From Sipunculus nudus (Eukaryota; Annelida; Sipuncula; Golfingiida; Sipunculidae): a DNA stretch of 64,000 bases. The position numbers were made by a program, and so were the translations under genes. The DNA is taken from NCBI GenBank assembly GCA_026874595.1, contig CM049317.1, positions 23,921,901 through 23,985,900 of the forward strand. Reading direction: 5' to 3'. Below, in pieces: positions 6,236 to 64,000 of the stretch (the stretch's first letter is position 1; every line of letters starts with the position of its first letter). Below the pieces are notes generated by a model. The model saw only the letters and a program-made list of their open reading frames with translations. It was not told the origin of the DNA and did not search any database.

Positions 6236-6323
6236 GTAAGCAACATGCAGTACAGAAACGTCGTGCCTCTATAGTACATGTTAACCCTTTGTATTACAGG
6301 TCACCAACATCAACCAATTAACC

Positions 6324-6463
6324 ATGAAGTCCTTACAAGTCGTATTCTGCAGCCTTGTGGCACTGCTGATTGTGACGTCATCGGTGGCCAAGCCTTCAAA
6401 GAGAGACTTCGGCCAAATTAGCAGCCTGGCAGAATGGAAATCTATTTGTAGCAACATATGCGG
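6324..6463 (+). CDS. Secreted four-cysteine peptide precursor, exon 1 (signal peptide and mature N-terminus)
   Basis: The frame opens with a classic signal peptide: MKS, then hydrophobic residues 5-18, then a small-residue end SSVA at 19-22. Next comes KPSKR (23-27), a dibasic processing site, and a mature start DFGQISSLAEWKSICSNIC. C42 and C46 are three residues apart after a tryptophan. The exon ends in a split glycine codon at GG|GTATGT, a good donor; reading past it gives an unconvincing 58-residue tail, so I end the exon here. I chose the ATG at 6324 because it directly begins the signal peptide. Seen: signal peptide, dibasic site, cysteines, donor. Inferred: a secreted neuropeptide-like or defence peptide. 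I cannot name the family. Confidence 0.6.
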
Positions 6464-8289
6464 GTATGTCCATCTTCCTTTCTGTTCTTTCTTAAAGGGA
6501 CATAATCAGGAGCAACAGAATGCATTTCTTTCACAATATGAGTTCAGTTTTTCCTTATACAAACATTTCCAAACAAAACCATCCCAGCACACCATTTATA
6601 GCTGTTTAACGTCTTGTCATGGTTCTTTGTGTGAATAAACACGATCCACGTGTGTCAGTTAAGATAAAAAAGCAGTATGACCGGAGGTCCGATTTTGTTC
6701 ATGTGCGACAGATCCCAAACTAGGTGTATTCCAAACATCAACATACATGGTTGTGAAATATCGGTACCTGAAAAAACGGAAACACAGGTGGCGTTCACGC
6801 TTTGTTTATATTGGCGCCAGTGATCGCCCCCGGTCAATTTTTTTTTAACACTATTACATTATACCAATATATCTCAAAGAGAAAACGCTATTTTACGTGT
6901 TAATTCAACCTGCATTGTACGTGATTGGGTCTCTAAAATAACAACTAGAAATCTGCATGCTAACCTATGCAAGCATCCGCCGTGTTGGGTGGTCCTCTTA
7001 GATGCTTGAGTTTGTTTTTCGGGGGAATGCCGAGGAAATCATGCTTGATTTAGATTAGATTATATGATCTACTTATGCCGGGTTCGTAGGGGATGGGATT
7101 CCTTTAGAAATGAAGTAAGTTTATGAAAGATTGTTCTTCGACATACTCTTCACGAAAGTTCCAAAATTATATATTTAATAATCCCTTATAATAAAAGGGA
7201 AACTAGGGGGAATGGCCCCCATTAGGATAAAATGTGCAATTGTGGCCGACGCTTTAACCAAAAAACGTACATTTTTAAGGTGGGGCTCCAGAGGAGTTGC
7301 GTAAGAACAAATGTGCCGCCGTCAATTACTATATAAAACTGTTAAGATTTGTTTCAATATTTATTAATTCTTTTTACTTTATATTTGGTGGCCATCGTTT
7401 CCATAACTGTGAGAAAACATAGGTCAAATTTATGGGAATCATTCCGTGATATATGTTGCAAGAATAGGTGCAGTGTATGGAATTCGATTGTGTTGAAGTA
7501 CTATTGTGAAGGTATGTTTGCGTGATCGGGATTGGCAGCGCCGTTACATATAGCACCAAAACAAGCTGCCGTATGCAGCCCAGAGAGTGGGTCCCCTTGG
7601 TTTGCTACATTGGTAGGTTTAACAGCTGTACCGCACTGATTTCCCACATGAACAAGTGTCCATACTGTACAGGGTACCGTTGATTAAAGCCAACGTACAT
7701 TTTAATATCGTAATTGAAAGACAGTTGAAACACATTGATCTAACGACCGTCCAACAACCTCCTTATGTCCTAATACTTGTACACTGATAGCATGTATATA
7801 GACAGACGGTGAATATCATATCCTTTGGTATGTCAGTTGCAGAGCGGATTTCTTGCTGTCATCTCAGTCTTGTGAAACTTCGAGCTCCAATATACATTTT
7901 GGTCAGCACACATACATATTAACATTGTCATTAACCACACATGAAAACTTTAAAAGTTGTCTCGATCGATTATTACTATGTTTTCTCTCACTGTTTTGCT
8001 GTTGCATTGTAACGTAGGGCTTGGTTCAAGCCACTCCTGCAACTGTTCTTCATTGTAGCAAATTAATACGGCAAACCAAATACATTTTAGATATATCATA
8101 ATCGGCAGCATAAGGAAAAATACAAAATCCTATTTCAGATTTCTGATTTAAGATTAGGAAAGTCCATCTATAGTTTTAATACATATTTCAAGGCATAATA
8201 TATGCGGAAACCTGTAGTCTTTCATTTTACTTCAACCATGCAATATTATACTTATGTTCCGGAGAAAAATATATCCACTCTCTTTTAAT

Positions 8290-33759: not shown

Positions 33760-34977
33760 CATAAGGACCCTGATATTTCATGTTTGTTTCCCAGGGCAGT
33801 TTCCAAAGATGAACTGTCACAGAACCTAGATTGTTTCTATGTTAAAAATGAAGTACTTATGCGTAAATGGCGACAACCTGATGTATGCGCTGATGATGAG
33901 TGGGCCATCAAACATCAAATAGTAATGCCCAAAAGCTTCCGCAGTGAGGTTCTAAGCATGGCACATAAGGCTCTTTTGTCTGGCCATTTAGGTATAAATA
34001 AAACTTATCAGATAGTTAGTTCACACTTCTATTGACCTAACCTCAGGAAAGATGTAGTACAATATTGTAAATCATGCCATACATGCCAGATGGTAGGCAA
34101 GCCCAATCGAATCCTCCTAAGGCCCCATTTAGGCCTATTCCTGCTTTCGAGGAACCATTCAGTAGGATTATTGTTGATTGTGTTGGACCACTGCCCAAAA
34201 CAAAATCTGGACATGAATTCTTGCTAACAATCATGTGCGCAGCTACCAGGTTCCCTGAGGCAATACCATTGCGCAAAATTAATGCCGAAAGTGTTGTCAA
34301 AGCTCTGACCAACTTTTTTACAACTTTTGGATTGCCAAAATCCGTCCAGTCTGACCAAGGGTCTAATTTTATGTCTGGCCTTATTCCAACAAGTTATGCT
34401 TGAGCTAGATATAAAACAGTACAGCTCTTCGCCATACCATCCTAAAAGTCAGGGCGCCCTCGAGCGTTCTCGCCAGACATTAAAAAACATGATCAGCACC
34501 AATTGCTATGGCACACAGAAAGACTGGGATGAAGGAATCCACCTATTGCTGTTTGCTGTCCGAGAATCCTTTCAAGAGTCCCTGGATTTCTGTCTGTCTG
34601 AACTAATTTTCGGACATGGACCTCGAATGGAACTTCCATTGAAACTGCTTAAAGAAAAACTCTTGTATGAAAATCCTGATTATCTTAGTTTAATGCAGTA
34701 TGTCTCAGACTTTCGCACTAAACTACACAATGCTTGTGAGATTGCAAAGTCAAATCTAAAATCTGAACAAAGTGAAATGAAAACAAAGTATGACAAGCAC
34801 ACTGTAAGTAGGACGTTTGAGCCTGGTGAAAAGGTCCTTGCCTTACTTCCCATCCCTGGCAGACCTCTGCAAGCTAGGTATTTTGGTCCTTACATTGTTG
34901 ACAAGAAAGTCAGTGATTTAAATTACATACTGTTGACACCAGATAGACGTAAGAAGAAATAACTGTGCCATGTTAAC
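33760..34977 (+). pseudogene. Integrase of the Gmr1-like element, frameshifted
   Basis: An HHCC zinc module (HKALLSGH, then YCKSCHTC) lies at about 33960-34092, broken by a TGA at 34033. After a frame change near 34105 comes the catalytic core: first Asp in IIVDCVGPLP (codon 34176), second in VQSDQGSNF (34353). A second frame change lies near 34380, and the catalytic Glu is in GALERSRQ (34462). The C-terminal GPY/F module (ARYFGPYIVDKK) ends near 34950, then a TAA at 34960 before LCHVNMLKPYYDR. It would insert the cDNA. The three acidic residues are kept, but the frame is not. Its position before reverse transcriptase is the feature of note. Confidence 0.88.
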
Positions 34978-36527
34978 ATGTTGAAACCATATTATGACAG
35001 AAATAGCACATCAGATGTTCCACAAAATGTTACTGTTGTAAATTGTTTAAACACTTTCCCTGACCCAGTTAAAGTAGCTACTGATGTAAACATTCAGAGT
35101 GGTACAGTACCATTAAAAAACTCAGATGTGCTTAAAAACCTGGATGCCAAACTGTCACACCTTACCGCACAACAACAACAAGACCTCAAGAACCTGCTGC
35201 GGAATTATGAACATTTGTTTAGTGACATTCCAACGCGAACTAACATGTTGTGCCATGACGTCGATTTGGCGAGGCAAGCGCTGTCAAGCAACATCCAAAT
35301 AGACTGAATCCAGAAAAGCAAAGGTATCTACAGGATGAGATTCAATATTTGCTGGACAATGATTTTATTGAACCTAGTAACAGTAACTGGAGTTCTCCAT
35401 GTATTCTTGTGCCAATACCTAATGGAAGTTACCGTATGTGCACAGATTATCGAAAACTGAACTCTGTCACCAAGACTGACACGTTCCCAATTCCGAGGAT
35501 CGTTGATTGTATTGATAGAGTCGGTAGCTCCAGATATGTCTCCAGGTTTGACTTGCGAAAAGGATTCTGGCAAGTTCCGCTGACAGAACGAGCGAAAGAA
35601 GTGTCCGCATTTGTGACGCCGCAAGGACTGTACCAGTATAAAGTTATGCCGTTTGGCATGAAGAACTCACCAGCCACGTCCCAGCGCCTCATCCATATGG
35701 TTGTCAAGGACATTCATGGCTGTGACGCATATATTGATGATCTTATCGTGTACAGCGACACCTGGGAGAAACATCTGCAAATTCTTCGCGACCTCTTCGA
35801 AAGACTCAGTGAAGCACGTCTGACCGTCAACTTAGTGAAATCTGAGTTTTGTCATGCACAAGTAACTTTTTTGGGTCATATTGTAAGGCAGGGTCAGGAA
35901 AAACCTGTTGATGCTAAGATAAGTGCTATTTCTGCATTTCCTAGACCAGCGAACAAAAAGCAAATAATGCGTTTTCTTGGAATGGCTGGATACTACCGGA
36001 AGTTTTGTCCAAATTTTGCTGCTGTTGCTAAACCTTTGACTAATTTGTTAAAGAAGAAACAAAAGTTTTTATGGAATGTTCAGTGTGAAAATGCATTTCA
36101 GAATTTGAAAGCAATTCTGCAAAGTTCACCAGTTTTAGCAGCTCCAGACTTTTCTGTACCTTTTAAGTTAGCTGTAGATGCTAGTGATACTGCTGCTGGT
36201 GCTGTGTTGTTACAAGAAGGCAATGATGGCATAGATCATCCAATTTGTTATTTCTAAAAAAATTAATGCAAACCAGATTAACTACTCCACCATTGAAAAA
36301 CAATGTTTGGCTTTGACTTTGGCGTTGCAACATTTTGAAGTTTATGTTACTTCATCAGTCAGGCCTATCATTGTCTTCAGTGATCACAGTCCCCTTACGT
36401 TCATGAACAAGTTGAAAATCAAAGATTGTTGAGATGGAGTTTGTTCTTACAGGATTGCATTCTTGATATCATACACATTAAAGGGAAAGACAATATACTT
36501 GCTGATTGCTTATCGAGATGTTTATGA
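34978..36527 (+). pseudogene. Reverse transcriptase and RNase H, frameshifted
   Basis: The linker ends in QQQDLKNLLRNYEHLFSDIP and CHDVDLARQA. A frame change near 35300 leads to the palm: DNDFIEPSNSNWSSPC, RMCTDYRKLN, SRFDLRKGFWQVPL, FGMKNSPATSQRL and the catalytic AYIDDLIVYSD (Y-I-D-D at 35730-35741). The connection reads FLGMAGYYRKFCPNF, and RNase H starts at FKLAVDASDTAAGAVLLQ. A frame change near 36255 and another near 36430 break RNase H, whose end reads [11 protein letters not shown] before a TGA at about 36525. All motifs are Ty3/gypsy type. The protein would copy the element RNA into DNA; it cannot be made whole here. Confidence 0.9.
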
Positions 36528-44333: not shown

Positions 44334-44339
44334 TTTATT
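44334..44339 (-). terminator. Poly(A) signal of the multi-copy peptide gene
   Basis: AATAAA on the minus strand, followed by GTGGTGTACAACG. It lies about 270 nt past the proposed stop at 44611, a reasonable 3' UTR length. Confidence 0.45.
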
Positions 44340-44610
44340 GCGTTGCCACTATACAATGACATATTGACCGTAACCAGACAGAGGCGGACATAAGTTGAAA
44401 ACATAACGACAGAACAAAGACTGTATGGATACGTAAACGTACACTAATGTCTATTATTGCTATACATAACTAGACTGCAAAAATGCAGTTTCTGTTTATG
44501 CAGCAGTAAATCCCGGTGAAAGCTGTCGTGCATAATATTTAAAATTGTTTGGTATTTCTGCAGGAATAAGTCTCTCATTAGAATTGGTGGAATATCCAGT
44601 TCCATGGGGT

Positions 44611-44632
44611 CTACAGCAAAGGTTTGACACAT
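44611..44632 (-). CDS. Multi-copy peptide precursor, proposed last exon
   Basis: After a TTTATGTAG acceptor, 22 nt read in the phase left by the previous exon: the A completes a proline codon, then C-V-K-P-L-L-stop. With a start at 58839 the five exons total 480 nt, exactly 160 codons, so the frame closes. Support beyond phase is weak: the upstream tract is only moderately pyrimidine-rich, and other acceptors nearby (for example before AAATACC) would also reach a stop soon. The poly(A) signal at 44334 favours a last exon in this area. Confidence 0.35.
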
Positions 44633-45139
44633 CTACATAAACACAACAGTATAAATGTATGAAGGTAAATAGTTAAATACATACTGCGTGTAAAAGTGAC
44701 TGAAAATTCAAAGAAAATCAACCGCCTGTTTGTAGACTGCATAGCAAGCAGCGGGCTCTGATACAATCTAGTGCAGCAATCTACGTCTAATTGACACGGA
44801 GAAGTTAACATAATGTAAGCAAGTGGGTAGACATAGTTCCCGTATGAGCCTCGCTTTGAATCCGACTCTTGCTGTGCTACACAACCTCTGGTGACGTCAC
44901 ATGTCCACGGGTTCTGATGACTTGATTAGCGTACAGCTTTTGATGACGTCAATGTTTATTGGGGCTGGGGAGTCTCTCTCTTGTGGAGAATGGTCCTTTT
45001 AACGAAATAACAGAATAGCACGTGAACAAATAAATGCAAAAATGTATAATTAGAAACAACAGTAATGTCGATTGAAGAAATGTTATTAGAGTCAAACTTC
45101 GATATTAAAAAATCCTCGATACGATGGTTGCATTTGCGA

Positions 45140-45260
45140 GGTAGTCGTCTAAGCAGGGCCTTTTGTAAAGAGCGGACAAGAATCGGGACCTCAATAAAAT
45201 GGTCTTTGTTTTGAGGTGGTCGCTTTAATGAAGTGGTCGTTAAGTGAGGTTTTAGTGTTA
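45140..45260. repeat. Dispersed repeat of the GTGGTCGTTAAGTGAGG type
   Basis: GCGAGGTAGTCG, GGTCTTTGTTTTGAGGTGG and GGTCGCTTTAATGAAGTGG, internally repetitive. It lies in the last intron of the peptide gene. Confidence 0.4.
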
Positions 45261-45405
45261 TACTCTTATTGAGTACTTTTATATGATCACTTTTTTTAAT
45301 TAACATCGAGAGAATTATCTTTGCGGGTTTTTACTTTTGAATACAAAATAGTTTAATAGCTCAAATGATGGCGAGAGAAGGATATATTTTTTTTAGTATA
45401 CTTAC

Positions 45406-45471
45406 GGTTCTTTTGTGTACCTCTTGCGGATGAATCCCATGACGTCATCGTAACCCTTGTAACGCTTGCCG
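45406..45471 (-). CDS. Multi-copy peptide precursor, exon 4 (diverged copy)
   Basis: A 66-nt exon between TTTGTTACAG and CC|GTAAGT. It reads GKRYKGYDDVMGFIRKRYTKE, with split codons at both ends. The peptide YKGYDDVMGFI lies between KR and RKR. It is the most diverged copy: FMSFL has become VMGFI. Entry and exit phases equal those of the other copies, so the exon can be added or lost without breaking the frame. It is separated from exon 3 by about 7 kb that contains a solo LTR and a GC-rich palindromic island. Confidence 0.78.
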
Positions 45472-45929
45472 CTGTAACAAAGAAAAGATAATCGAATTAT
45501 ACAGCACATTCACGCATTATGTGTGGCGTCACAGGCAGTACATATTATATTTATCATAAATAGCTTGTAACACGTAAAGCAAGTGCAAAGTGGTCCCTAA
45601 TATCTCATATCTTAGTGGACAGTCGCCTGACTGGGATACAATCACAACAGATGGTATATTACTAGAGATATGAATAACTAGAAAAATGCATTGTTAGTAA
45701 TGCAGGCCTCCGCTATTTCGGCTGTCCTTGTTGTGGGATCCTCCGGAAAACGTGTTTGCATTCTCTTATCTAATCATTCTTCCAGGTCCAGTTTGCTGAA
45801 GTTCGAATCAAACCGTGTTTGCGGCGTCCGTAGGGTTAGCTTACTTTTACCGTGCGAAGGCCGTGAGAATGGGGAAGACACCTTGCCGTTCCCGCACTTC
45901 AGCCGCTTAAGTATTCCTGCGGTTTTAAC

Positions 45930-46680
45930 AACCTAATGATGATCTGCGGTTTGCGGTGACCGCAGCGGGTTGTGACCGAGGCTTAAACCGCATGTACACC
46001 GTGCGTCTCTCGGGTAGCCGAGAAGACGTTGAAAATCGCACGGGCATCCTACGACATCCGTACGTCTGCTGTGCGGTCTGCGCCTTAAGCCTCGGTCACA
46101 ACCCGCTGCGGTCACCGCACACCGTAGTGTACCTAACGGTTTCTGGGACCGCAGGAATACTTAAGCCTCGGTCACAACCCGCTGCGGCCACCCCACAACG
46201 TAGATCACCGTTCGGTTTTTGAAACCGCAGGAATACCTATGCGGCCGACATGCGGGAACGGCACGGTGTCTTTCTCATTCTCACGGTTCTCACACGGTGA
46301 AGAAAGCTAACCCTGCGGACGCCGCAAGCTGACCTTGCGGAAGCAGCAAAGACCCCTTACGACAGTCGCAGGTACGCCGTACTTCTCTCGAGTAGCCGAG
46401 TTTGCGATAAAAATCGCAACGGTATCCTACGACCTCCCTACGTCTACTGTACGGTGCCCCTACGGAGCCCGCACGTGGCTGCCTGACGCACGGCCGCCGC
46501 AACAACTTAAGCGCTTGCGCTAATGTCAGTTACGGTCGTTGCAGAGTCCCTGCGGCCTTTGAAAAACGCACGGTTGCAGTGCGTCTGCCGCACGGAATAG
46601 CCCAAAACTCTCGCCGTACGGCGACCGTATCCCGGTTGTGACCGAGGCTTACGCAACTCGCTGAATAAAGGTCTATGAAC
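45930..46680. repeat. GC-rich palindromic repeat island
   Basis: 33-bp arms at 45953-45985 and 46086-46118 are perfect reverse complements; a third copy of the arm (CCTCGGTCACAACCCGCTGC) lies at about 46162-46195 and a fourth part at about 46631-46652. Blocks such as CTCTCGGGTAGCCGAG and CATCCTACGACATCCGTACG recur about 350 bp later in altered form. The whole island is much more GC-rich than its surroundings. Open frames across it on both strands are by-products. Confidence 0.85.
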
Positions 46681-46689
46681 GCGTAGATA

Positions 46690-48480
46690 ACTGCCACTGA
46701 CATGAAAGAATGACGATGCACCACAAACACAACACTTATATAGTTAGAATGGCCAATGAATATGAAAAAAAAGTGAAATATAAAACATGACCAAGTTTTA
46801 TAGTAAATCTAATAATCAGTACGATTAAGTAACATTCCAAAACAATAAGGAACCCAAAATCAAATATCCGATGGCGATTGGTTCAACACCCTGCAACCAC
46901 CTGCCGAAAGCGGGTGTTCACATGATGACTTAAAAAAATCTCGATATTAACTTTAACCCTGAAATATCCCACACTTCGCAAAATCGGATTAATAAGATAC
47001 CTCACAGTCTGGCCCCCACAATGCACTGCGGCTACTAAATACACCGATGGCGTAGGTTAAATGTAAAAAAAAATGTAATGTAGTCCCTTAGATATCGTTG
47101 GGGAATTTTTTATCAAGGCTACTAACATAAACCTGAGTGTGACTTCACGGAATAAGTAATCTTTTGCAAGCATGCGCAATCGAAATGTTAACATAGTGTT
47201 TCCTTGAAATGTAACACATTGTTATTTTTAAGTTTGACAGTTGAGACAAGTAGTGCCGTTTATCCCACAATGCTCATCAGGAAAAGGTTGGTTCGAGAAG
47301 AAACGACCTCTAGTGGAAGGTTGAAAGTATCCATGAAACGGGGTTTATCAGGGCCTTGTTGTTCCAATGCTTTATTTCCTTCCAACTCTGTCGAGCTCTG
47401 TTTCCTTCAAATGGTTCACGTTTTTACAGAAATCTTTTTTTTCACTTGGTAGACATGTGAAAATGTGAGTCCTTCAGTGACATTTATTTCACCAAACCCG
47501 CCACTCACTCTGTCCCGTGGCGTAATTCTAGAGAGAACAAGTCTGCGCCGTCAGCGCCTGACTATAACGGGATGGTTAAAAAACAAATCGCGCAGCTGGT
47601 GTGAACAGACAGCCCTAAACACAATCGTTAATATTTAATGCTACGCTGAAGAAATAGACGACGGAAATCGAACAGGTTACTCAATTATATATCTGATAAC
47701 CAGAAGCTGTGAAGTCCAGCCAAGCAGACACTACTGTCAGCACAGGGGGCATAACTGACAGCATTGCATGTGTGACCCGTGGGGCTAGATTCGGAAGCAT
47801 GACGCTGGCTGTCTTGTTTGCCGTGACACTCGTTCTATTAGTGAATCACGCACAGCGGGTTTTGTCACCTGGTTCTTCGTACGGCCCCGTCATGCAACCG
47901 TTACCTTACATCTCGTTGCCATGGAAACCGTCCTCCAAAAAGACAATATGATGGATTGTGAATGGCTAATATGAATATTGTTAATAAATGCAAACCAACC
48001 GCGGGGATATAAAGAAGAAAATATTAGAATAATCAGAGATTAGTTTCCCCGTTTCTATGCATCGCACAGTCGTCACTCATTCCCTATGCCACTGCTGGCA
48101 TATAGGCAGATTTTACCGTATGTGGCCGCGAGGGTCCTTGCACATGACTTCTTACATGGCAATAACTTTGAACATTTAGGGAAACATTCCTAAAAACGCT
48201 AATGGGCAAGACAGTCTCATAACGATTAAGAAAATTGTTTTAATAATCCGGTCGGAACACAAAGTCCTTCAGTTTGATAATAAAACCGTCAATAGTCATT
48301 TCAGTATTTCCGCAATCCATATGTTATACAGACTGACCTTGCCCCAATCAAAATGAGCAAAGAAAATCAGGAACCTTAATCTTTCATGAATTAAAACAGA
48401 TGACTCGTCCTTGGAAGTTGGACGCAAGGACAAAAAGCAATAATTGAAACGTCCAGTGTTCTGTGCGAGTCTCTCAGTCT
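46690..48480. other. Intronic stretch of the peptide gene, no exon seen
   Basis: No further copy of the FMSFL exon was found on the minus strand. The plus-strand frames at 47204-47452 and 47709-47951 have no recognisable motif. Confidence 0.4.
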
Positions 48481-48483
48481 TTG

Positions 48484-48581
48484 GCTGAGAGAGAGAGAGA
48501 GAATGTGAGAGGGAGAGCAAAGTCATATATTTACACTAGCAATTAGAGTACACAGGCAGTGAGCCCACGACAGTAAAACAA

Positions 48582-48646
<65 letters not shown>
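48484..48646. repeat. GA-rich tract and (TA)n microsatellite
   Basis: (GA)n at about 48487-48502 and a pure TA tract at 48584-48646. Confidence 0.9.
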
Positions 48647-48649
48647 GCT

Positions 48650-50700
48650 TCGCTACCATCGAATTTAAATTTACTTAAGTGTCTCAGTTAACTTCTGATT
48701 TGTTTGCCGGCCGTCCCACTTCTAGAGTTTTGTTTTCTATCAGCAAAGCGTCTTAGTTTAACTTCGTAACTTCGTAAAGTTATTCGGAAAAGCCAGGGAA
48801 CCGAGGGACCTGGTGGTCGGGACATGTCCAGTCTGCGGTGTGTCGCTCCTTGTATTTCCTTTACAAAGCCGTATATCTCCCCGTCCTATCGGAGTTTGTT
48901 TATTTGCAATTCCTCAGGAGAAACTGAATCCTTTCTAATGCTGTCCACAGTAGGACAACGTAGACATAGAGATAAGAATTCAGCTACCCCGGAGAGACAC
49001 CATCAATTGTTTCATCCTCAAGCACTCTTAGATTTACCGTTGGGTGAATTAATTTTCCAGGCACTTTTCTGTGTTCAACAACAAACTTGCAATGTATACC
49101 AGGTCTGTTTGTCAATTGCTTGGAAATATACAGGAACCGGCAATACCCGGGCAACGTGGTTCCCTTGGTAACGATGTATGTTTCAATAAAAAGTATTAAA
49201 CAATGTATAAGTATTGGAAACTGACGACCTTACCTCGAAAGATCGGATGAAAAATTTCCCTATATCCCCCTATTTATTTTAGATATTCCGAAATAATGAT
49301 TTCGTCTTTTTAAGATGATCGATTGTGCCGTTTTCCTTGAACCCAAAGCTTGCATTTATCGTTAGAATAAAATGCAGGATCGCAAATTCCAGCTCCAAAC
49401 GGTAATTAAGCTCTACCTTCATCCATTATGGAAAAAGTGAAAAAATATGACGAAAATACATATTTTCATGCCGAATTTAATTATGAAATTTTCGATGTTT
49501 TATTAAATGTTATACTAATGTGAATTGGCGATAATAAGTACGTACATTTTTCAATGCGCATGGAAGTTGAATGGATTTAATAGCGCTTTCAATCAAGGTG
49601 ACCTTGTAATTGCAAGGTTAGTTTAATTATCTTGTCAAAGAGGAATTAAGAAACGCCGCGAGATCTTTAAAGGAGAAATGGAGAGACCTCGATAGAATCT
49701 AGGAGACTCGCTTTTATATCTTAACTACATGTGATACGTGTCTGACATTCTAAGACTCCATTCATGACGAACCTGAAGTCCGAAACACCTCATAATTGTA
49801 TATCATTCTTATATTATGTTTCCCTTCATTATTATTCATTAGATAATTTCATTCACAGATTGTATACATTTTCATAAAAGCATCATGGGTATTTCAGTTC
49901 ATTATATGGTATGACATAACTTTTGAATTCCTTTTAATGTTCAGGATTTTTATTAATTTCCAAAATAAGTAATAGTTTAGATATCGAGGTAGTTATGCTT
50001 TGATTTCTTTTCAAGTAACAATTTTACGACTTGGCGGATCGTGTCTTGATGACTTAGAGCGAATTTGACCAGATATGGTTTTGTTTTGTTAGGATGCAAA
50101 GATGCCATTTTAAAACACAACACAGATTTGACGATAGTAAAAGTAAGTATAGTGCAGAAGGACACATTTCATAGGTTTCGACAACTGGAATAAGACAAGC
50201 AGAGAGATTAACGAAACCAAATGCTCGTTAAAAAGCTTCACATCTTATGGAAGCCTCACCCCGAAATTATTAATTTCAGGTCGTGTCTCTGGAGGCCAAT
50301 GTATTTTGAATGAAACTTGTCTTTATCAGAGTAAAACTCCGGTTTAACTATCTTCTACAGTATCTTAAGGACCAAGCGTTCATCAGGAACATCTGGTCCC
50401 CCATGACCATAAACTGTACATCGGAGTACTCCAATAACATCAAAACACGAACTGACGACGAGGAATCGAATTATATGAAAAGTACTTCGGGCTCAGCTGA
50501 GCTCCTAATGCAAAAAACCATCAGAGATCTTATGGTCTATCCAGGGACGTGCGGGACTTTTTTTTCTGATTTGAGCCTCTTAAAGGGGACTAACGAGTCC
50601 CTAGACGTGAACCCAGTGACACATTTAATGTACAATTTATTATGTCCTTGGGTTATATGATACAGTTGATGATGTAAGAAAATGCAAAGAGTTCACATCT
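48650..50700. other. Intronic stretch of the peptide gene, no exon seen
   Basis: Open frames at 48824-49171 and 50310-50660 on the plus strand show no domain, signal peptide or repeat of the peptide motif. Confidence 0.4.
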
Positions 50701-50707
50701 TACACTG

Positions 50708-51572
50708 TGTTACGGAACCTAATATCAACAGATCACGTATGCATGACGAACATAAATTTTGTCAAGGAGATTAAAAAATCAGATTCTGTAACACTAGGCA
50801 GCGTGGAATGTCCAGGGGAATGAACAAAGAAGTCAGCGGTTTTTCGTTAACAAATAACTATAATTTACTCTTAAAACAGCCCTAACATTACAATACACTA
50901 AATCAATACAATTACACAGTATAACAGCGGTACAACAACAATCAATACAATCACACAGTAAAATAAACAAAGTGCACAGTACCTGGATACCACTGTCACA
51001 GCGATAAGTCCTTTAAAATGTATAAGCCGGATGAAAAGTTCACTCGGAGAATAACAGTCCAATGTAAAGCTCTTGTAACAATCCAGAAACTAAACTTGAG
51101 ACAGTCAGCACTAAATTGTAAAGTGTTAGCAATAGTAGAATCCCTGAAATTACTAGATAATCGGATAAGTCCAACTGACTCACACGCTTCCGTGTCCGCT
51201 GGAATATTCTCTCACCTCTCTCTCTCTCGGTTCTAAAACACAGCCCCCTATTTATAACTTTTCATCTCCAGCCGAGAACCTTCCATTGCTCGTACATTCT
51301 AAAGAATCTAACACAGTACACACGTTCAAAGAACATACCAGAACAACGAATGCCGTGTCTCAACATATTAGGGTTCACACGTGAGCTCGCCCGGCTCGGC
51401 CAGGCGAGAAAGCCCCAAGCTAGCATGACAACGAGCGTTCAACCAGTACGGATTAAACTGAGAGTGCAACACCCGGCCAGGCGAGGCAGCCACAACACGA
51501 GTTACGCCCGTGTCACACAACAAAAAGACATCTGTAAGACTTGTGCACACAATAAAAAGGACACCTGTAACA
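50708..51572 (-). mobile_element. Solo LTR with CACTG target-site duplication
   Basis: Begins TGTTACGGAACC and ends CACCTGTAACA, the reverse complement of the family LTR. CACTG lies directly on both sides (50703-50707 and 51573-51577), a 5-bp target-site duplication. The outer end is extended by a partial duplication (GACATCTGTAAGACTTGTG before GGACACCTGTAACA). It lies in the third intron of the peptide gene, in the same orientation as that gene, so its poly(A) signal is in sense. Confidence 0.92.
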
Positions 51573-51894
51573 CACTGTCACGGAACTTGTTTCTTTTTCA
51601 AACAATACATGTGAGCATTCTTTGTTGTGATTCTTGTCAGCTGTTTCCAACACTGGTTTATGTAATAGAAACAGAGATAATTTCAAGATTTTTTGTTAAC
51701 CAATGTAGGGTGGGTTTCGCATTAAAAAGATCTGTGCCTAGTTATTCTGAAAGTGTTTGCCTCAGGGGAAATTTTAGATGAAAAGAATAACACTTTCTTA
51801 TTTTAATTATTATTTTTTTGTTGGAGTTAATTGCCTTCATCTTGTAATGCTAGCTTAACTTACTTTAATGTATTTACATCTGCCGATTTTTCCG

Positions 51895-52095
51895 ACTAAA
51901 TGCATGGCAGGGCAGTAGCACACGCTTCATCCTGGTGTTAACCAGGCTAGGTGACTACTGCACCTGCGGGTCCTTGCCATGCCACCGAGTAAACCAGCGA
52001 AAGGCTCACTCGTTTGTGATTGAAACACGGTCATGGGGTACAGCCTTCCCATTAGGCATACAGAGCCCTAGCCCTAAGTGGGGTCTGACCATGAA
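51895..52095. repeat. Possible short interspersed element with internal pairing
   Basis: GGCAGGGCAGTAG and CTACTGCACC can pair, and GCATGGCAGGGC pairs in part with CTTGCCATGCC. It has the look of a folded SINE head or small palindromic element, but there is no clear A- or B-box. Confidence 0.3.
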
Positions 52096-52334
52096 AAACT
52101 GACTTATCTGAATTTATTTCGAACCCGCTTTCTCCCGGCTTTGAATCCTGGGCTTAACGGGAAACACTTTCGCAAGACGACCAAAGCTGACACAAAGCAA
52201 AGTATCGAAATTAATACCACAAACATGATACCGATGTTTTGAAACCTGACAAATTATCTGCACCACTATAAGAAATAAAACAATCTCCAATGTTCCCATG
52301 CATTACGGAAGCAAGCAGTGTCAGTAAAAGAGGA

Positions 52335-52445
52335 GTAAAACGTTCCCCGCTGTTCGAATCCCGGACTGGCTATGAGACTGGTTCGGTAGGTTTCTCCGGA
52401 TTCTCCTGTTGCCTCCACCTCCTAGTTATTATAACTTTTTGTACA
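52335..52445 (+). mobile_element. tRNA-derived SINE fragment
   Basis: The B-box GTTCGAATCCC is followed by GGTTTCTCCGGATTCTCCTG, the tail type seen in the SINE at 16490-16655. It ends about 60 nt before exon 3 of the peptide gene. Confidence 0.6.
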
Positions 52446-52502
52446 ATCCATGCAAAATGAACAAAATTGATAGTAGAGACACAGGGGACACAGCTTCCCT
52501 AC

Positions 52503-52577
52503 CTGCTCTCTGGAAGTCTCTTACGAAGGAAAGACATGAATGAGTCGTATCCGGAGTGGTCCCTCTTCTCAGTGTTA
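52503..52577 (-). CDS. Multi-copy peptide precursor, exon 3
   Basis: A 75-nt exon between TATTTTTTTCCAG and AGCAG|GTAGGG. It reads NTEKRDHSGYDSFMSFLRKR followed by LPES and a split codon. The peptide DHSGYDSFMSFL is released by KR before and RKR after. A single nucleotide finishes the first codon and two begin the last, exactly as in exons 2 and 4. Compared with exon 2, ten of the twelve peptide positions are identical or similar, but codon choice differs, as expected of an old duplication under selection on the protein. Confidence 0.85.
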
Positions 52578-53104
52578 CTGGAAAAAAATATTCCTCAGAT
52601 AAACGGAATTTTGATTTCGTTGAAAAAAAAACGTGACTATATTAATGTCTATTTTATACTATTAAATGATTAGGACATTTGGTAAACACCTTGGACCAGT
52701 TGGAATATGTACGTATCTTAACGTAAAATTAAAATCCAGGATGTCTAATTAAGACATATCATTCTTGTCATATGGACATATTCCACATAATCATTATTTG
52801 TTACACATTAAACAACAAGTGCCAGAAAATGCTGTATCCCTTTAGCAAAACTGCATCCGCCACTACTGTAGCCTTAACACCTTTTTGTTCATGACGCCAG
52901 ATAATTCGGTTAAAGCCTCGTATCCGTGTGAAGCAATAACATTTAAAGATCCCATTTTAATTTTTTCACCTAAAGGGACCAAAACCGTCTTTATAAGTGT
53001 TGACAACGTTTTGATATATCTGCATAGTATAGCATTTATATGTAAGAATTCAACGAGACAAAAGCCTGAAGCCACAGCAGAAAAGGATCCAGACAGGCAT
53101 ATTG

Positions 53105-53268
53105 TAACCCGTACCCCTCCGGCCGTGTTACTTGAAAGGGCCCTATTTCCATATTTGACGTCAACCAATTACAGATAACCCCTTACACATTTTATAAGGA
53201 AAAGGCCAAAACACGCCGATCGAATCGTATACAGGCTGCTCGTTTTGTTTGTATCCACGTGGGGGGGG
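53105..53268 (-). repeat. Dispersed repeat family R, partial copy 5
   Basis: TTTATAAGGAAAAGGCCAAA, AGGCTGCTCGTTTTGTTTG and TATCCACGTGG match the family in reverse orientation, ending at a G run (53261-53274). Confidence 0.55.
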
Positions 53269-53400
53269 GGGGGCAAAATAGTCTAAAAAAATTCAACAAG
53301 ACACGGATACTGCGATACGTATCGTAATACGCTACCGCTTGTCGCAAAATATTGCAATTCGATATTTGTAGGCGATTACCAATACTGCTTCTTTGCCTAC

Positions 53401-53472
53401 CTGTCTTCTGGCACACGTTTCTTCAGGAAGGACATGAAATCGTCGTAGCCGCCGTTATCACGCTTCTCAGCA
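53401..53472 (-). CDS. Multi-copy peptide precursor, exon 2
   Basis: A 72-nt exon between CTTTTTTCAG and GACAG|GTAGGC. It reads AEKRDNGGYDDFMSFLKKR then VPED, with split codons at both ends. The peptide DNGGYDDFMSFL lies between KR and KKR. The core GYD-x-FMSFL is shared with exon 3. No glycine precedes the basic site, so the peptide would not be amidated. The exon joins in frame to exon 1 (split serine) and exon 3 (split serine). Intron lengths on either side are about 5.1 kb and 0.8 kb. Confidence 0.85.
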
Positions 53473-53516
53473 CTGAAAAAAGAGACAGAAATAATGGTCA
53501 GGTCAACGCCTGGCTG

Positions 53517-53895
53517 CCTCTGCCAGGAGGGCACGTGTTCATTCTCGTTCGTGTGTGTGTGTGTTTGTTTGTTCACAACAAATCTCACGCAGTCTTGTAC
53601 GGAATTCCATGAAATTTTCAGGGCACCTCGGGAATGGGCAAATGACGAAACGGTTCTCCTCGTAATCAGGATCCAGGATGGACTTTCATGAATATTCACA
53701 AATGTGCAGTCACATATGAATGATTGAAATGGGTATATGGGCCGGATGAGTGAATGCACACAATTGTTTGGGAAAAGATGCACGAATGGGCCTGGGAATA
53801 TGGGTCAATGAGTGAAAAGAGCACGGGTTCTGCGTATCCCACATTACAAAACGCCCAGATGGCGGAGGCCTGCATTCATGAGAATGCATGTTTCT
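53517..53895 (+). repeat. Dispersed repeat family S, longest copy
   Basis: CTGCCTCTGCCAGGAGGG, CATTCTCGTTCGTGTG, GAATATTCACAAATGTGCAG, GGGCCTGGGAATATGGG, GAATGCATGTTTCTAG. It contains a GT microsatellite near 53551-53562. Confidence 0.6.
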
Positions 53896-53899
53896 AGTT

Positions 53900-56800
53900 T
53901 ATGCCTTTTTTTCTAGTTTTGCTTGTATGCCTGTTAGTATATCTATATGTCCATGAAGAGTCCCGACCGGTGGTGCTGCTATTCTCATATGTAAACTTTA
54001 ATTACTGTTGGAGCCTTCCAAGAGTTCGCAACTTAATGCTGTAGACTCACAGAACCTTTTTCGGCAAATGGCTAGTTCCAGAGATACTAAAATATATGTT
54101 TCCCACCAATTCCCTGAAAAAGTATGTTTTCTTTTGGTTCCTTATATATAGTTACTGGAGTAACTGGTTCGTTCAGTAGAAGTTCATCAATAGGAAGTTT
54201 CCATAAACAAAATTAAAAAAAAACTTCCCATGTCCCCTCAAACCCTGTTCTAGGAAAACAGATTATTGAAGGTGATTTTCCCTGATTATTGCAGACTACT
54301 CTGAGACAGATGAAAGCCTACGTTCTACTAAGGTACGCGTTTTTCTTATTGTTGACATTATGTATCACCAATTCTTAAAAGGAATGGGCGGTTAAAAGCA
54401 AACATATATTTTAAAAGACTGTCAGCTAGTAAGGGATACTGGCTAGAGTTGATTCCGCGCCTGTGATATAGAGAACCTGTATGAGAGCGGTCACCGACCT
54501 CTACAGTGAAATGCTTCATTGAGCGGTGTCGTAATAGAATTGTCTGAGAGAAGCGATTTCCCTGTGCAGGTAAGAACACAATGTAATCGGTTTCAGCGCC
54601 AGCATTACTTTTATTGATTTCCAACAGCAGCTACTATGGTCAAACTGCCAGTATTTTGGCCAAACAGTTAGAAAGTGTAGACGCAATAAATAATTTTATT
54701 ATTTTATATAAGTACCCATGGAAGTGGTTAGGAAATTGATAACCAGCCGGTTTTACAATGTCGGTATTTGCCACCGATTGGATGGAGGGGATAATAGTGA
54801 GCCAGCTTTTTTTCATATTATAATATATTTTATATGTCACATATTTATATATATATATATTAAATTATATGCATATATAATTAATTAATAACTACTTAAA
54901 CTATGACTGACAGGACACTACAAAATGACATAATATAATTAAGCGTTCATTAGGAGAAAAGTTTCTCTTTATGCAGTAAGCACAGTGAAACAATTCTGAT
55001 AGTATTATGTAATTGAAACAAAACATCATAGTCCTAATTGATGTTTTTCTAGGTCACGATAAAAGAATTAATAAATCTTCAAAAGAACAAATATCGACCT
55101 TTTGTCTGCTAAATATTTCATTGCTCGTTCACGTTTCATTGGGAGGCCGCTATTGAGTAAATCTTGATTGCAGCTTCCGCAAATGAAGTTTGTCTGAAGG
55201 AACGGAAGGGCAGATTTATCGGGCAGGAATCGCCATAAGGGCCGCAATGTATCAATCATTGCTATTTGACCTACTATTAGGCTTATGAATAAACAATAGG
55301 CTTAATGACAATACATCCACTTATCACGACTGCAATCACTATTGTAGAGCCGCTGTAGTTAAAGAAACATGCCGCCAGTGAAGATAATAACATTATGGAA
55401 AAAATACACCGGTAAAAAACGACGGCGGCTTGTTTGTTATTTTCAGCATATGGTCTCTAATGCAGCAGCTGCAAGAGTCTGGGTGACCTTTCTCGACTCA
55501 TAACAGTGACATGTTGAGTGAATGTAAAGATAACGGAGCTGGCGTTCTCTGAATTAAGCCCGCGCCTAGTCCAGATGTGATAATATCCGCTCGCAGGAAT
55601 ATGAAAATGATTCAGATTCCAAACTAATCAGTTTTTTAAAAGTTATATCCTTTGAGATTGCAACAATAAAGAAAACTCCTATACTGTAGCGGCTAACACC
55701 AGTTGTTAAGGCCTGATACGTACTCTATTCCAGGGTATTAAATCCCTGTAAGCTAGCCTAGGTACAAATTGATGGAGTCTTAACCGCTGAAGAATTCGCA
55801 ATTTAAGGCATAGAAGGCGTTTTTAAAAAATACAAATGTCTGCTTGGTATCTCGTTTAAAGTGTTTACTATCCCTCTTGTGATCATTGTCCGACTAATTA
55901 TGAAAATGTGTACCTCTACTCAGAAAGGTCACTTCGGCGTTTTCCGCTTTTCTGATATTGACACTTCGAAGAATGTTCCATCTGAACGCGATTAAGACAA
56001 AGTTTAAATTTTGAGAATGAACCTTCGGAATAATTATCTTGATTATACATTTTGATTTCCATTCTGCATCTCAAACTGTTTCTTCCCATTCTGAAATATG
56101 CAAAACGAATGCATTGAAATACTTTGATTGCCAAGAATAATGTTTAACTCATGGCATTTCTTCGTCTCCTAAGACACTTCAGGAACGGTTTAAAGTACAT
56201 TAACACTGTAGATTAAGACATTTATATGGCTCAATGTGACAGAGTACGGCCCAACTACTAGATATTAACTATATTTATTCTCTAGTGATAGTAAATATAT
56301 TGGGAATGGCCACTGAGTGGGTTGACAGGCACCCATGGAAGGCAATGAAGGAGAAAGATTAAAGAATTTTGCATATTCCGAAAGTCAAGTATAATCTAGT
56401 GTAAACCCAATAATGTTTCGCCCTAGTTCTCATTTTATAAACTTAATTGAAATCTGAGGAACCTGAACATTTTCTTTTCATGCGTTATAAGCAGCCTTAA
56501 ACAGTCTTGAAGACTGACAGGTTGACACTTTCAGCATTTTATTCCGTCCGTATAAAATCCGAAGTGGTAGCATTAATACACACTCAAAGAATAATAATAA
56601 GATGGACATGCGCTCTTTAGCTTAATGATGCACTATTAACCTCTGGGTGATATGATAATTACGAATTGAAAGTAGCGTCTGACACGTGGTCCCAGTGGTA
56701 TTTACTACTTGCGAACTATTGTCCCGCTTGGCGAACTCCGCCTTTAACTACGGTAATTACAGCATCCAATGAGCAAATTATGAAACCAGGATTTTATTAG

Positions 56801-57220
56801 TGAAAATAAAAGTTTTAAGTGTCAAATGAAATTGAACAAAAGTGACATGAAACATATATTAAAAATCAGTTCCTGTTTGGTTACTATGGCAACCGAACCA
56901 GCCTGTCATTTGGCCTTTTGTTCTGTTAATTTGGTTAGGGAAGGTTGCAATCTGTTTACACGACTTGACATCTGGTGATCAGCATAATAACTGAGGAAAC
57001 GGATGTAGCATAAGACAGAGCTCACTGTCAGGAGGGGGACGTATGACGTCACAAGTTAATCTGAGGAATATTCATCAAGACCGTGATTGTCTGCGTGTTG
57101 GTCCCTCCGTTAAACGTCTAGACTGGAATTCCTCCAGTGCTGAATCCACGTGGAACGGTTAGAGATACTAAGGGAACACATGCATATGCGGAACAAGCAT
57201 TGCTATACTCCCCAGGCAGC
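53900..57220. other. Intron 1 of the peptide gene, no exon seen
   Basis: No FM-x-FL copy found on the minus strand. A minus-strand frame at 55068-55259 contains FICGSCNQDLLNSGLPMKR, a C-X2-C string loosely like those in transposon helper proteins, without further support. A TA-rich patch lies near 54843-54890. Confidence 0.35.
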
Positions 57221-57224
57221 ATCT

Positions 57225-57578
57225 CTTATCTCCTTTATTTTTCACCGCTGCTCAGCCAGGTTGTATTAGTTTCACCACCAGGGCATGCACAGAGCTATAA
57301 TCTGACCAATGAGAGCCTGGTATCGCATTGTGCATCCAGAACCTAAATTTCAAACACGCGACACCCGTTCTCATTTGTCTGATTCTGAGCAATATGCAAG
57401 AACCGATGTTATCAGATCTACAAAAGCAGATGTCGCATGCTTAAAATTTGGAGCTGGATGCATAACAATGCGAAACCACGCTCTCATTGGTCTGATACAA
57501 ATCCTTGCTCCGTGTTCCCCCTAACGGGAAAACCCAGAGAACCTTGCTAAACAAAGCAGCGGTACAAATCAAAAGGAG
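57225..57578. mobile_element. Complete palindromic MITE (family M, both arms)
   Basis: The left arm (57225-57362: TTTTTCACCGCTGCTCAGCC, CTGACCAATGAGAGCCTGG, GCATTGTGCATCCAG) and right arm (57431-57578: GAGCTGGATGCATAACAATG, ACCACGCTCTCATTGGTCTG, AAAGCAGCGGTACAAATC) are imperfect reverse complements of each other. About 70 bp lies between them. No coding capacity. It sits in the first intron of the peptide gene. Confidence 0.75.
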
Positions 57579-57599
57579 ATCTGGAATTACTGCAGTGAA

Positions 57600-58520
57600 T
57601 AACCACTGAGGATCGTATTAAACTTTTTTTTTTTTTGCGTTTCCTTCAAGAATCCTATAGTGTTATTAGAATTCATAAAGTATAAAAATTGCATTGTTGC
57701 ACTTAAACGGACATACGTATCATTTTTTTCCCTTCCAAATCACAGTTTGTTTAGCATCACACTAACATTCCCACAGCTGTTATTGTTATGTAGAACTTCT
57801 GTCACATTAGCACCCTTCACACGTTTGGGTGATGACTATGGGACAATCCATAAAAGGGGAGGTCCATGGTCCGTTAATGACACTGATTACAGATTAAGAG
57901 TGAAAGATACTAACGATGCCAGTGGCACGTTCATATTAAGCTGACTTGGTGCTTGGCACAGAGCACAGAGCTATGAATAATTCAGTATAGTCATGATCTG
58001 TGTTAAGACTTTCGGTGAATCTCTGAGGTGGTATCGATATTTCGCCGTTTTCCTTGTGAAATACCTAAATGATGAAATCAAAGATATCATGCACTGACTA
58101 AGGAATCTTTATTTGCAGTTATCATACTTGCAAGGGGGACTTAGAGTTAAAACATGACAAACGGAAGTGAAAACAGAGAAAACAAAGAAGTTTCTCTGCA
58201 GGTATAATTTCTATTATGTTACTCTATATAACCAACGATGCATTGATGGCAGTGTTTTGGATTGTAATGTAATTAAGATTAATTTATTTCAGTCATTATC
58301 TGAAGCTTTATTCCAGTAATTTTGATTAAGCGATGGATATTCTACTTTACTAATGAAGGTTATATTTTGTTTTCTGTCGTTGTAATTTTAGTAACGATTG
58401 TTGATATACTCCATAATGCAAAACAGATTTGATTAATGTTTGACATCTTATCTAATACCTCTTTTTGCTCCATTTACATTGGCTGTTACCGTTAATAGTA
58501 TTGATGGACCAACGGCGTTC
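57600..58520. other. Intronic stretch, no gene seen
   Basis: Between the MITE and exon 1 of the peptide gene. The plus-strand frame at 57660-57944 has no recognisable domain. Confidence 0.4.
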
Positions 58521-58594
58521 AGGGTCAGACGTTTGTAAAGGGTTGAATGCAGCTCACGTAGAACTTAAACAGGCTGTGGGAAAATTGATCTAAC

Positions 58595-58839
58595 CTTTCG
58601 GAGAAAGCCCGCTTGAGGAATTCCATGAAGTTGTGAAAGCGGCCATTTTCGGAGCGCTTGTTCGTCAAGTGACCGTAGTATTCCGCGCAGCATTCGGCGT
58701 GCTCCGGCGTGTGGCACTTGTGCTGGGCAGAACAGGTCCCACAGCTGTCGCAGCCTGACCGCTTCTGGTCCGCCAGTGCCAGACCCAGCATCGATAACAG
58801 GCAAAGAGCTGAAAGAAAAAAAGAGAAAATGAGTTCCAT
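58595..58839 (-). CDS. Multi-copy peptide precursor, exon 1: signal peptide, trissin-like six-cysteine peptide, first FM-x-FL copy
   Basis: Residues 1-23 form a signal peptide (hydrophobic core FSFFLSALCLL, end ALA), then DQKR. Residues 28-60 are a peptide with cysteines at 30, 33, 36, 42, 50 and 51 (C-X2-C-X2-C-X5-C-X7-CC), starting SGCDSCGTC and ending in CCAEYYGHLTN before KR. The CD-S-CG start, the X7-CC end and the following tyrosine resemble the insect neuropeptide trissin, though middle spacing differs by one or two. Residues 63-75 (SENGRFHNFMEFL) are the first copy of the repeated peptide, followed by KR. The exon ends at GAAAG|GTTAGA. The start is uncertain: TTTCTTTCAG at 58809 could be an acceptor, with the true start in an upstream exon not seen. 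Confidence 0.72.
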
Positions 58840-63479: not shown

Positions 63480-64000
63480 TCTATACGCCCGTATATGACG
63501 GGACGTATTACGGTATACTCACGGTCCGTCCGTCCGTCCGTCCATTGTCCGTACATTAATATTGAGTGTCGCCGCGATAACTGACCAGGGATCTGACGGA
63601 TTTTTCACGAAACTCGCGATAACTTCTAATCAAGATTATCTGGCCGATTATCTAGGTCGATTATAGGCAAAGTCTCCCTTTATTTAATGAGGTCAGAGAT
63701 CATCAAACTATTTGTGCTGTCGCCGCGATAACTCACTAGGAATATGATTGATTTTTTTATGAAACGCAAAAGGAATGTAAACCATATAATATCGAATATA
63801 ATATCTCGCCTAAGTTAAAATCACGGCAAAAACCGTGCATATTTAATGAGTTCAGAGGTCATCATACTACGGTGGCGCCGTGATGGCTTACTAAAAATCT
63901 CGTTGATTTTCAATAATCTGTTTATAAATATTAACAAATGCTGTTTCTCCTCTGCAAAACTCATGCATATTTAATGAGGTCAGAGGTCACAGTCATACAA
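63480..64000 (-). repeat. Dispersed element T, second copy (cut by the window end)
   Basis: Reverse complement of the element at 25690-26210: CGCCCGTATATGACGGG, a (CCGT)n tract, then subrepeats with TGTCGCCGCGATAACT and ATTTAATGAGGTCAGAG at about 63680, 63840 and 63970, a spacing of roughly 130-160 bp. It continues past the right edge. Confidence 0.75.

Follow-up and report, generated by a model that had tools for sequence, protein, structure and literature searches.

Does the minus strand of this stretch of Sipunculus nudus DNA (GenBank assembly GCA_026874595.1, contig CM049317.1, positions 23,921,901 to 23,985,900 of the forward strand; the whole 64,000 nucleotides are called the window, and its positions are used below) encode a neuropeptide precursor, and is the cysteine-rich peptide within it a trissin? 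An earlier note on the same DNA had proposed, for positions 44334..58839, a precursor that joins a trissin-like six-cysteine peptide to four related linear peptides. We found what seems to be an undescribed small animal gene, apparently with one cysteine-bridged signalling peptide and four related short peptides as its product. The gene looks real, and its four exons encode a secreted precursor. Very probably we are dealing with a functional gene for a multi-peptide neuropeptide (or peptide-hormone) precursor, from a protostome that is probably a lophotrochozoan, and this judgement extends to the account of processing and exon duplication given below. Compared with PDB chains, muscle myosin exons of this genome scored highest against 3i5f, next against 1dfk, 2ec6, 2os8 and related chains, and after these against vertebrate and arthropod chains, the first two groups being squid and scallop. 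The margins were wide in one comparison (441, 421-404 and 395 bits) and very small in another, where the second group led the vertebrate chains by less than one bit; the order agrees with a lophotrochozoan without fixing the phylum. The molluscan haemocyanin domain PF14830 had no match, which carries no information on the taxon, as the control genomes gave none either.

The four minus-strand exons, claimed before to have proper splice borders, are indeed preceded by AG and followed by GT at the places given, and when joined they form a single open frame through all joints, as had also been reported. Exon 1 (exon A, 58595..58839) opens with the ATG of MELIFSFFLSALCLLSMLGLALA and carries the signal peptide, the six-cysteine peptide and the first linear peptide before its donor AAG/GTTAGA; an alternative 5' end is the acceptor at 58808. 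Exons 2 (B, 53401..53472) and 3 (C, 52503..52577) are 72 and 75 nt long and both of phase 2-2, and exon 4 (D, 45402..45471), which ends ...YTKEP TAA, is taken as the last coding exon. The introns measure 5.1, 0.8 and 7.0 kb, and scoring with approximate splice-site matrices gave 2.2 for the donor of exon 1 and 5.9 and 6.2 for those of exons 2 and 3. The coding sequence thus assembled starts with the ATG at 58839 and closes with the TAA at 45404-45402 (462 nt, 153 residues), with a GC content of 0.52 overall and 0.66 at third codon positions, the GC content of the window being 0.38.

The translated precursor has a regular layout. By inspection of MELIFSFFLSALCLLSMLGLALA, a hydrophobic leader ends in the AxA sequence ALA and is followed by DQ and KR. 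Next comes the predicted mature six-cysteine peptide SGCDSCGTCSAQHKCHTPEHAECCAEYYGHLTN (58660..58758, minus strand), a non-amidated 33-mer between KR sites, and then linear peptide 1, SENGRFHNFMEFL (58615..58653), between KR and KR. After a spacer, linear peptide 2, DNGGYDDFMSFL (53424..53459), lies between KR and KKR; a second spacer leads to linear peptide 3, DHSGYDSFMSFL (52526..52561), between KR and RKR, and a third to linear peptide 4, YKGYDDVMGFI (45429..45461), between KR and RKR, behind which only YTKEP remains. All five candidate peptides are therefore bounded on both sides by KR or [KR]KR, and the spacers separating them are short and mostly acidic. The four linear peptides, all on the minus strand, are non-amidated, 11-13 residues long and end in [FV]-M-x-F-[LI]. 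The presence of four dibasic-flanked linear peptides and a six-cysteine peptide was thus borne out, and the inference that one gene encodes both the disulfide peptide and the linear family is supported by exon 1, which itself carries both kinds. In the processing that we propose, the signal peptide would direct the precursor of 153 residues to the regulated secretory pathway, where prohormone convertases would cleave at the KR, KKR and RKR sites and a carboxypeptidase would remove the basic residues. The products would be a 33-residue peptide with three disulfides, whose pairing is a prediction, and four linear peptides, and the cysteine peptide and the linear peptides would be co-released and might act on G-protein-coupled receptors.

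The linear-peptide motif is rare in the surrounding DNA. When it was defined strictly, as two basic residues, 4-12 residues, [FV]MxF[LI] and two further basic residues, there were four matches in the six frames of 113.5 kb, all in the four exons and on one strand, and none in 100 random 108.5-kb third-order Markov sequences; a relaxed form gave five matches (the extra one at 63811) vs 42 across the 100 Markov sequences, and because the motif was derived from the finding itself, this control speaks to rarity and is no unbiased test. The linear-peptide exons also appear to be constrained. Exons B and C, compared over 16 codons, differed at a proportion of 0.87 of synonymous sites (pS) and 0.25 of nonsynonymous sites (pN), and all six exon pairs, compared over 10 core codons, pointed in the same direction (pS 0.60-1.07, pN 0.19-0.43), on a sample that is small and with an alignment on the conserved core that lowers pN by choice. 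The low pN suggests purifying selection between the exons, and the saturation at synonymous sites indicates that the duplications are old.

The exon structure is consistent with such duplications. Exons A, B and C are each followed by an intron that interrupts a serine codon between its second and third bases, and the tail of exon A shares the layout of exons B and C, namely KR, linear peptide, KR, short spacer and Ser. We propose that the starting precursor may have held a single copy each of the cysteine peptide and the linear peptide, that a phase-2 exon resembling the tail of exon 1 would then have been duplicated in tandem, and that the duplicated linear peptides would have been retained under purifying selection. 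Since exons B and C are symmetric, skipping of either preserves the frame, so that isoforms with fewer linear copies are possible. Searches of the 1.43-Gb genome (153 contigs) with the B-D peptides and with the exon A protein revealed no second gene of this type: the former recovered the three exons and one other match at E 4.5, and the latter recovered exon A alone at E<=0.001. The other match (L011, G000:C15:34046732-34046842), considered as a paralogue, reads EEDSNKRDSSGYDAFPNIKESDLPEH; it is exon C-like but lacks the MxFL core, and is probably a chance hit.

The two ends of the gene are defined to different degrees. At the 5' end, the ATG at 58839 does give a signal peptide, and the six-cysteine peptide follows in exon 1 as proposed before; the leader, however, coincides in part with a very strong acceptor (TTTCTCTTTTTTTCTTTCAG/CTC at 58808), and the F, S and L codons of the leader double as its polypyrimidine tract. 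Among 5687 AGs this one scores in the 99.98th percentile, and an intron may therefore interrupt the signal peptide, with the first exon lying further upstream. The final residues of the leader are identical under either 5' model. Upstream of exon 1, in the 55 kb examined (the window plus 49.5 kb, of which 5,000 bases read N and fell outside the 5' exon search), there were 40 ATG-to-donor segments with a donor score of at least 1, none of which could be singled out as the 5' exon; three candidates picked by eye lie at 83007-82977, 84711-84687 and 112151-112130, with the numbering of the window extended beyond 64000.

At the 3' end, a fifth exon (44610..44631, minus strand, 22 nt) had been proposed, which would add CVKPLL and a stop. 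Read through, exon 4 gives CCG TAA, with the stop directly at the supposed donor (the exon would end at 45406 in the spliced version), and therefore the coding sequence can end at 45402. The reported 480 nt closing at a stop are reproduced as 458 + 22 nt with the fifth exon, but the frame has already closed in exon 4 at 462 nt, so the count of five exons was given up. The supposed donor, ACC/GTAAGT, would not by itself decide against the extra exon, because its score of 1.6 slightly exceeds the 95th percentile of 6191 GTs (1.46) and comes near the 2.2 accepted for exon 1. We set the fifth exon aside because the frame closes at the TAA in exon 4 and because its acceptor is weak, at the 83rd percentile of AGs; it is not needed rather than disproved. 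Downstream of the stop, a possible polyadenylation signal, the first AATAAA, lies at 44955..44960 on the minus strand, and three ATTAAA sequences (45357, 45300 and 45229) are nearer to the stop.

Several points weigh against the reading as a functional precursor gene. The acceptor of exon 3 reaches the 88th percentile only of AGs, the exact start of the precursor and its first exon are uncertain, the comparison of pS and pN draws on few codons, and expression of the gene in neurons is something we infer from sequence. Database searches add to these. Among 5.8 billion proteins the precursor retrieved 8 candidates, none at E<=1, and a broadened artificial query retrieved 99 candidates, none at E<=10, in searches that require shared five-residue words and can miss distant or unannotated relatives. 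Animal proteins are present in this database, since a 30-residue padded trissin query retrieved 65 trissin-type proteins from it, most of them named insect sequences. The best Pfam match to the precursor, Synapsin_N (E 0.009, 16 bits), was rejected as below the cut-off of 27. The six-cysteine peptide had no match in PDB at E<=10, the window had none in Rfam, and the strings FMSFL, FMGFL, FMEFL and VMGFI led to no neuropeptide paper by title in the open-licence literature. The protein searches thus placed the exons in no unrelated known family, and we call this a new multi-peptide neuropeptide precursor with no relative detected in the searches made. A proneuropeptide of this kind adds a candidate signalling system.

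The general plan has parallels. In pedal peptide and orcokinin precursors there are many peptides of 11-15 residues, each non-amidated and flanked by dibasic sites, and the linear peptides resemble them in being several, short, non-amidated and dibasic-flanked. The core differs: to our knowledge, [YF]D..[FV]MxF[LI] is not the pedal peptide/orcokinin motif. The earlier note knew of no described precursor with this combination, and our searches found none; however, there is precedent for this plan, since the FYFY and GWE precursors of molluscs hold short linear peptides beside a cysteine-rich one, as described in passages of PMC8398477, and in limpet FYFY the linear peptide is repeated many times. 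According to the same published description, on which the comparison relies, FYFY has ten cysteines, and the motifs and their order in FYFY and GWE differ from those of the candidate. The phoronid LKFL peptide and the nemertean DMF peptide, lineage-specific lophotrochozoan peptides mentioned in the consulted part of PMC8557429, bear names that are vaguely similar.

Whether the six-cysteine peptide is a trissin was then a question of how much of the trissin plan it retains. The consulted part of PMC7179676 gives the proposed ancestral insect trissin as LSCDSCGRECXXXCGTRNFRTCCFNYL, non-amidated and located between the signal peptide and a basic site. The candidate shares with arthropod trissin the six cysteines, the CDSCG start (identical to that of the ancestral sequence), the X7-CC end (C-HTPEHAE-CC in the candidate), the lack of amidation, and its place as the first peptide after the leader with a basic cleavage site behind it. 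It departs from arthropod trissin in the middle spacing (C-x2-C-x2-C-x5-C-x7-CC vs C-x2-C-x3-C-x3-C-x7-CC), in lacking the GTxxFRTCCFNYL block, near-invariant in the trissins compared (the candidate ends CCAEYYGHLTN), and in the KR site that separates leader and cysteine peptide. Nor did nine trissin-type precursors examined, of the 65, have linear repeats such as those found here. Some flexibility in spacing is known, in that single insertions occur in some insect trissins (PMC7179676, same passages).

A trissin profile, built from 28 distinct cores of 64 of the 65 proteins (those named by species are insects, and the extraction pattern required the x3/x3 spacing), scored the candidate at 17.5 bits. 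Of 4000 cysteine-matched peptides in each set, 9 random and 45 shuffled ones reached this score, a range of 0.2-1.1% that is optimistic since the family was chosen by eye; with random spacing, 2 of 4000 peptides reached it. An AlphaFold prediction for exon 1, run together with 11 insect trissins (mean predicted local distance difference test score, pLDDT, 68; predicted template-modelling score, pTM, 0.31) was too weak to use. The proposed likeness to trissin accordingly stood in part: the CDSCG start, the X7-CC and the non-amidated, basic-flanked end were there, while the x2/x5 spacing and the missing FNYL end departed from trissin, and the profile set the peptide only weakly apart from cysteine-matched random ones. 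Because trissin was singled out by eye, we regard the link as suggestive only. The peptide resembles trissin in overall plan and could be a divergent lophotrochozoan counterpart, and we have not filed it as trissin.

A sharper form of the precursor reading would make the peptide a divergent lophotrochozoan trissin orthologue and ligand of orphan receptors, to which the linear peptides were added by lineage-specific exon duplication. We hold this as a tentative possibility. Besides the shared features and the profile score, it is favoured by the listing of lophotrochozoan trissin-type receptors as orphan in the consulted part of PMC8557429, where the query sequences came from molluscs only. We saw no canonical trissin elsewhere in the genome, which would fit, in a search that lacked a positive control and returned no candidates. 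Likewise, no lophotrochozoan trissin ligand was shown in the open-licence literature as covered here (titles, abstract starts and selected passages, with subscription journals, preprints and supplements outside the scope). The different spacing, the missing terminal block, the choice of family by eye and the linear repeats, without counterpart in the nine precursors examined, are the points that hold this form back. The fuller proposal, that this is the missing lophotrochozoan trissin, co-encoded with a new FM-x-FL family so that one gene would serve two receptor systems, appears rather doubtful. If the peptide were of the trissin type, it would offer a directly testable ligand for receptors listed as orphan in lophotrochozoans (PMC8557429, same part) and, as far as the ligand is concerned, would trace trissin signalling to the ancestor of protostomes. 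Both the precursor claim and the trissin claim are testable from the mature sequences predicted here and from their masses, for which the calculated [M+H]+ values are 1380.541, 1405.573, 1307.598 and 1627.732 for the linear peptides and 3536.291 for the cysteine peptide with three disulfides.

It is improbable that the locus is instead a gene for a secreted, cysteine-rich peptide of defence or venom type, with linear segments that are processed propeptide pieces and have no signalling role. Four related, convertase-bounded linear peptides have stayed alike despite near-saturated synonymous sites, and such a repeat array is the typical plan of a neuropeptide precursor. In favour of a defence role, molluscan cysteine-rich secreted peptides have sometimes been suspected to be antimicrobial, according to passages of PMC8398477. 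Very unlikely, finally, is a division of real exons among more than one transcript, in which exon 1 with its six cysteines would belong to another gene or splice form than the exons for the linear peptides: the long introns, the weaker donor of exon 1 and the frame that survives skipping of exons 2 and 3 would allow it, but exon 1 already joins the six-cysteine peptide to a member of the linear family, and the phases agree across all joints. The single multi-peptide precursor is the preferred reading.

Other features were seen in the window and the genome. A second possible secreted-peptide gene lies at 6300-6463 on the plus strand, where an acceptor-like site is followed by an ATG at 6324 that gives MKSLQVVFCSLVALLIVTSSVAKPSKRDFGQISSLAEWKSICSNIC and by a GTATGT donor at 6464; it encodes a leader and a KR site, after which a cysteine-containing peptide begins, with no Pfam match and no convincing next exon. 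Pieces of a retroelement occupy about 34071-36257 on the plus strand. They comprise a reverse transcriptase/RNase H frame at 35259-36257, a preceding frame at 34309-34962 whose integrase match is sub-threshold, and a frame at 34071-34403 that looks integrase core-like by eye; the order of integrase before reverse transcriptase presumably recalls Gmr1-type elements. Elsewhere in the genome, one head-domain exon (Q-IVQANPVLEAYGNAKT) of the muscle myosin gene (L025, G000:C2:44849337-44852248) exists in four versions, which appear to be tandem alternative exons.

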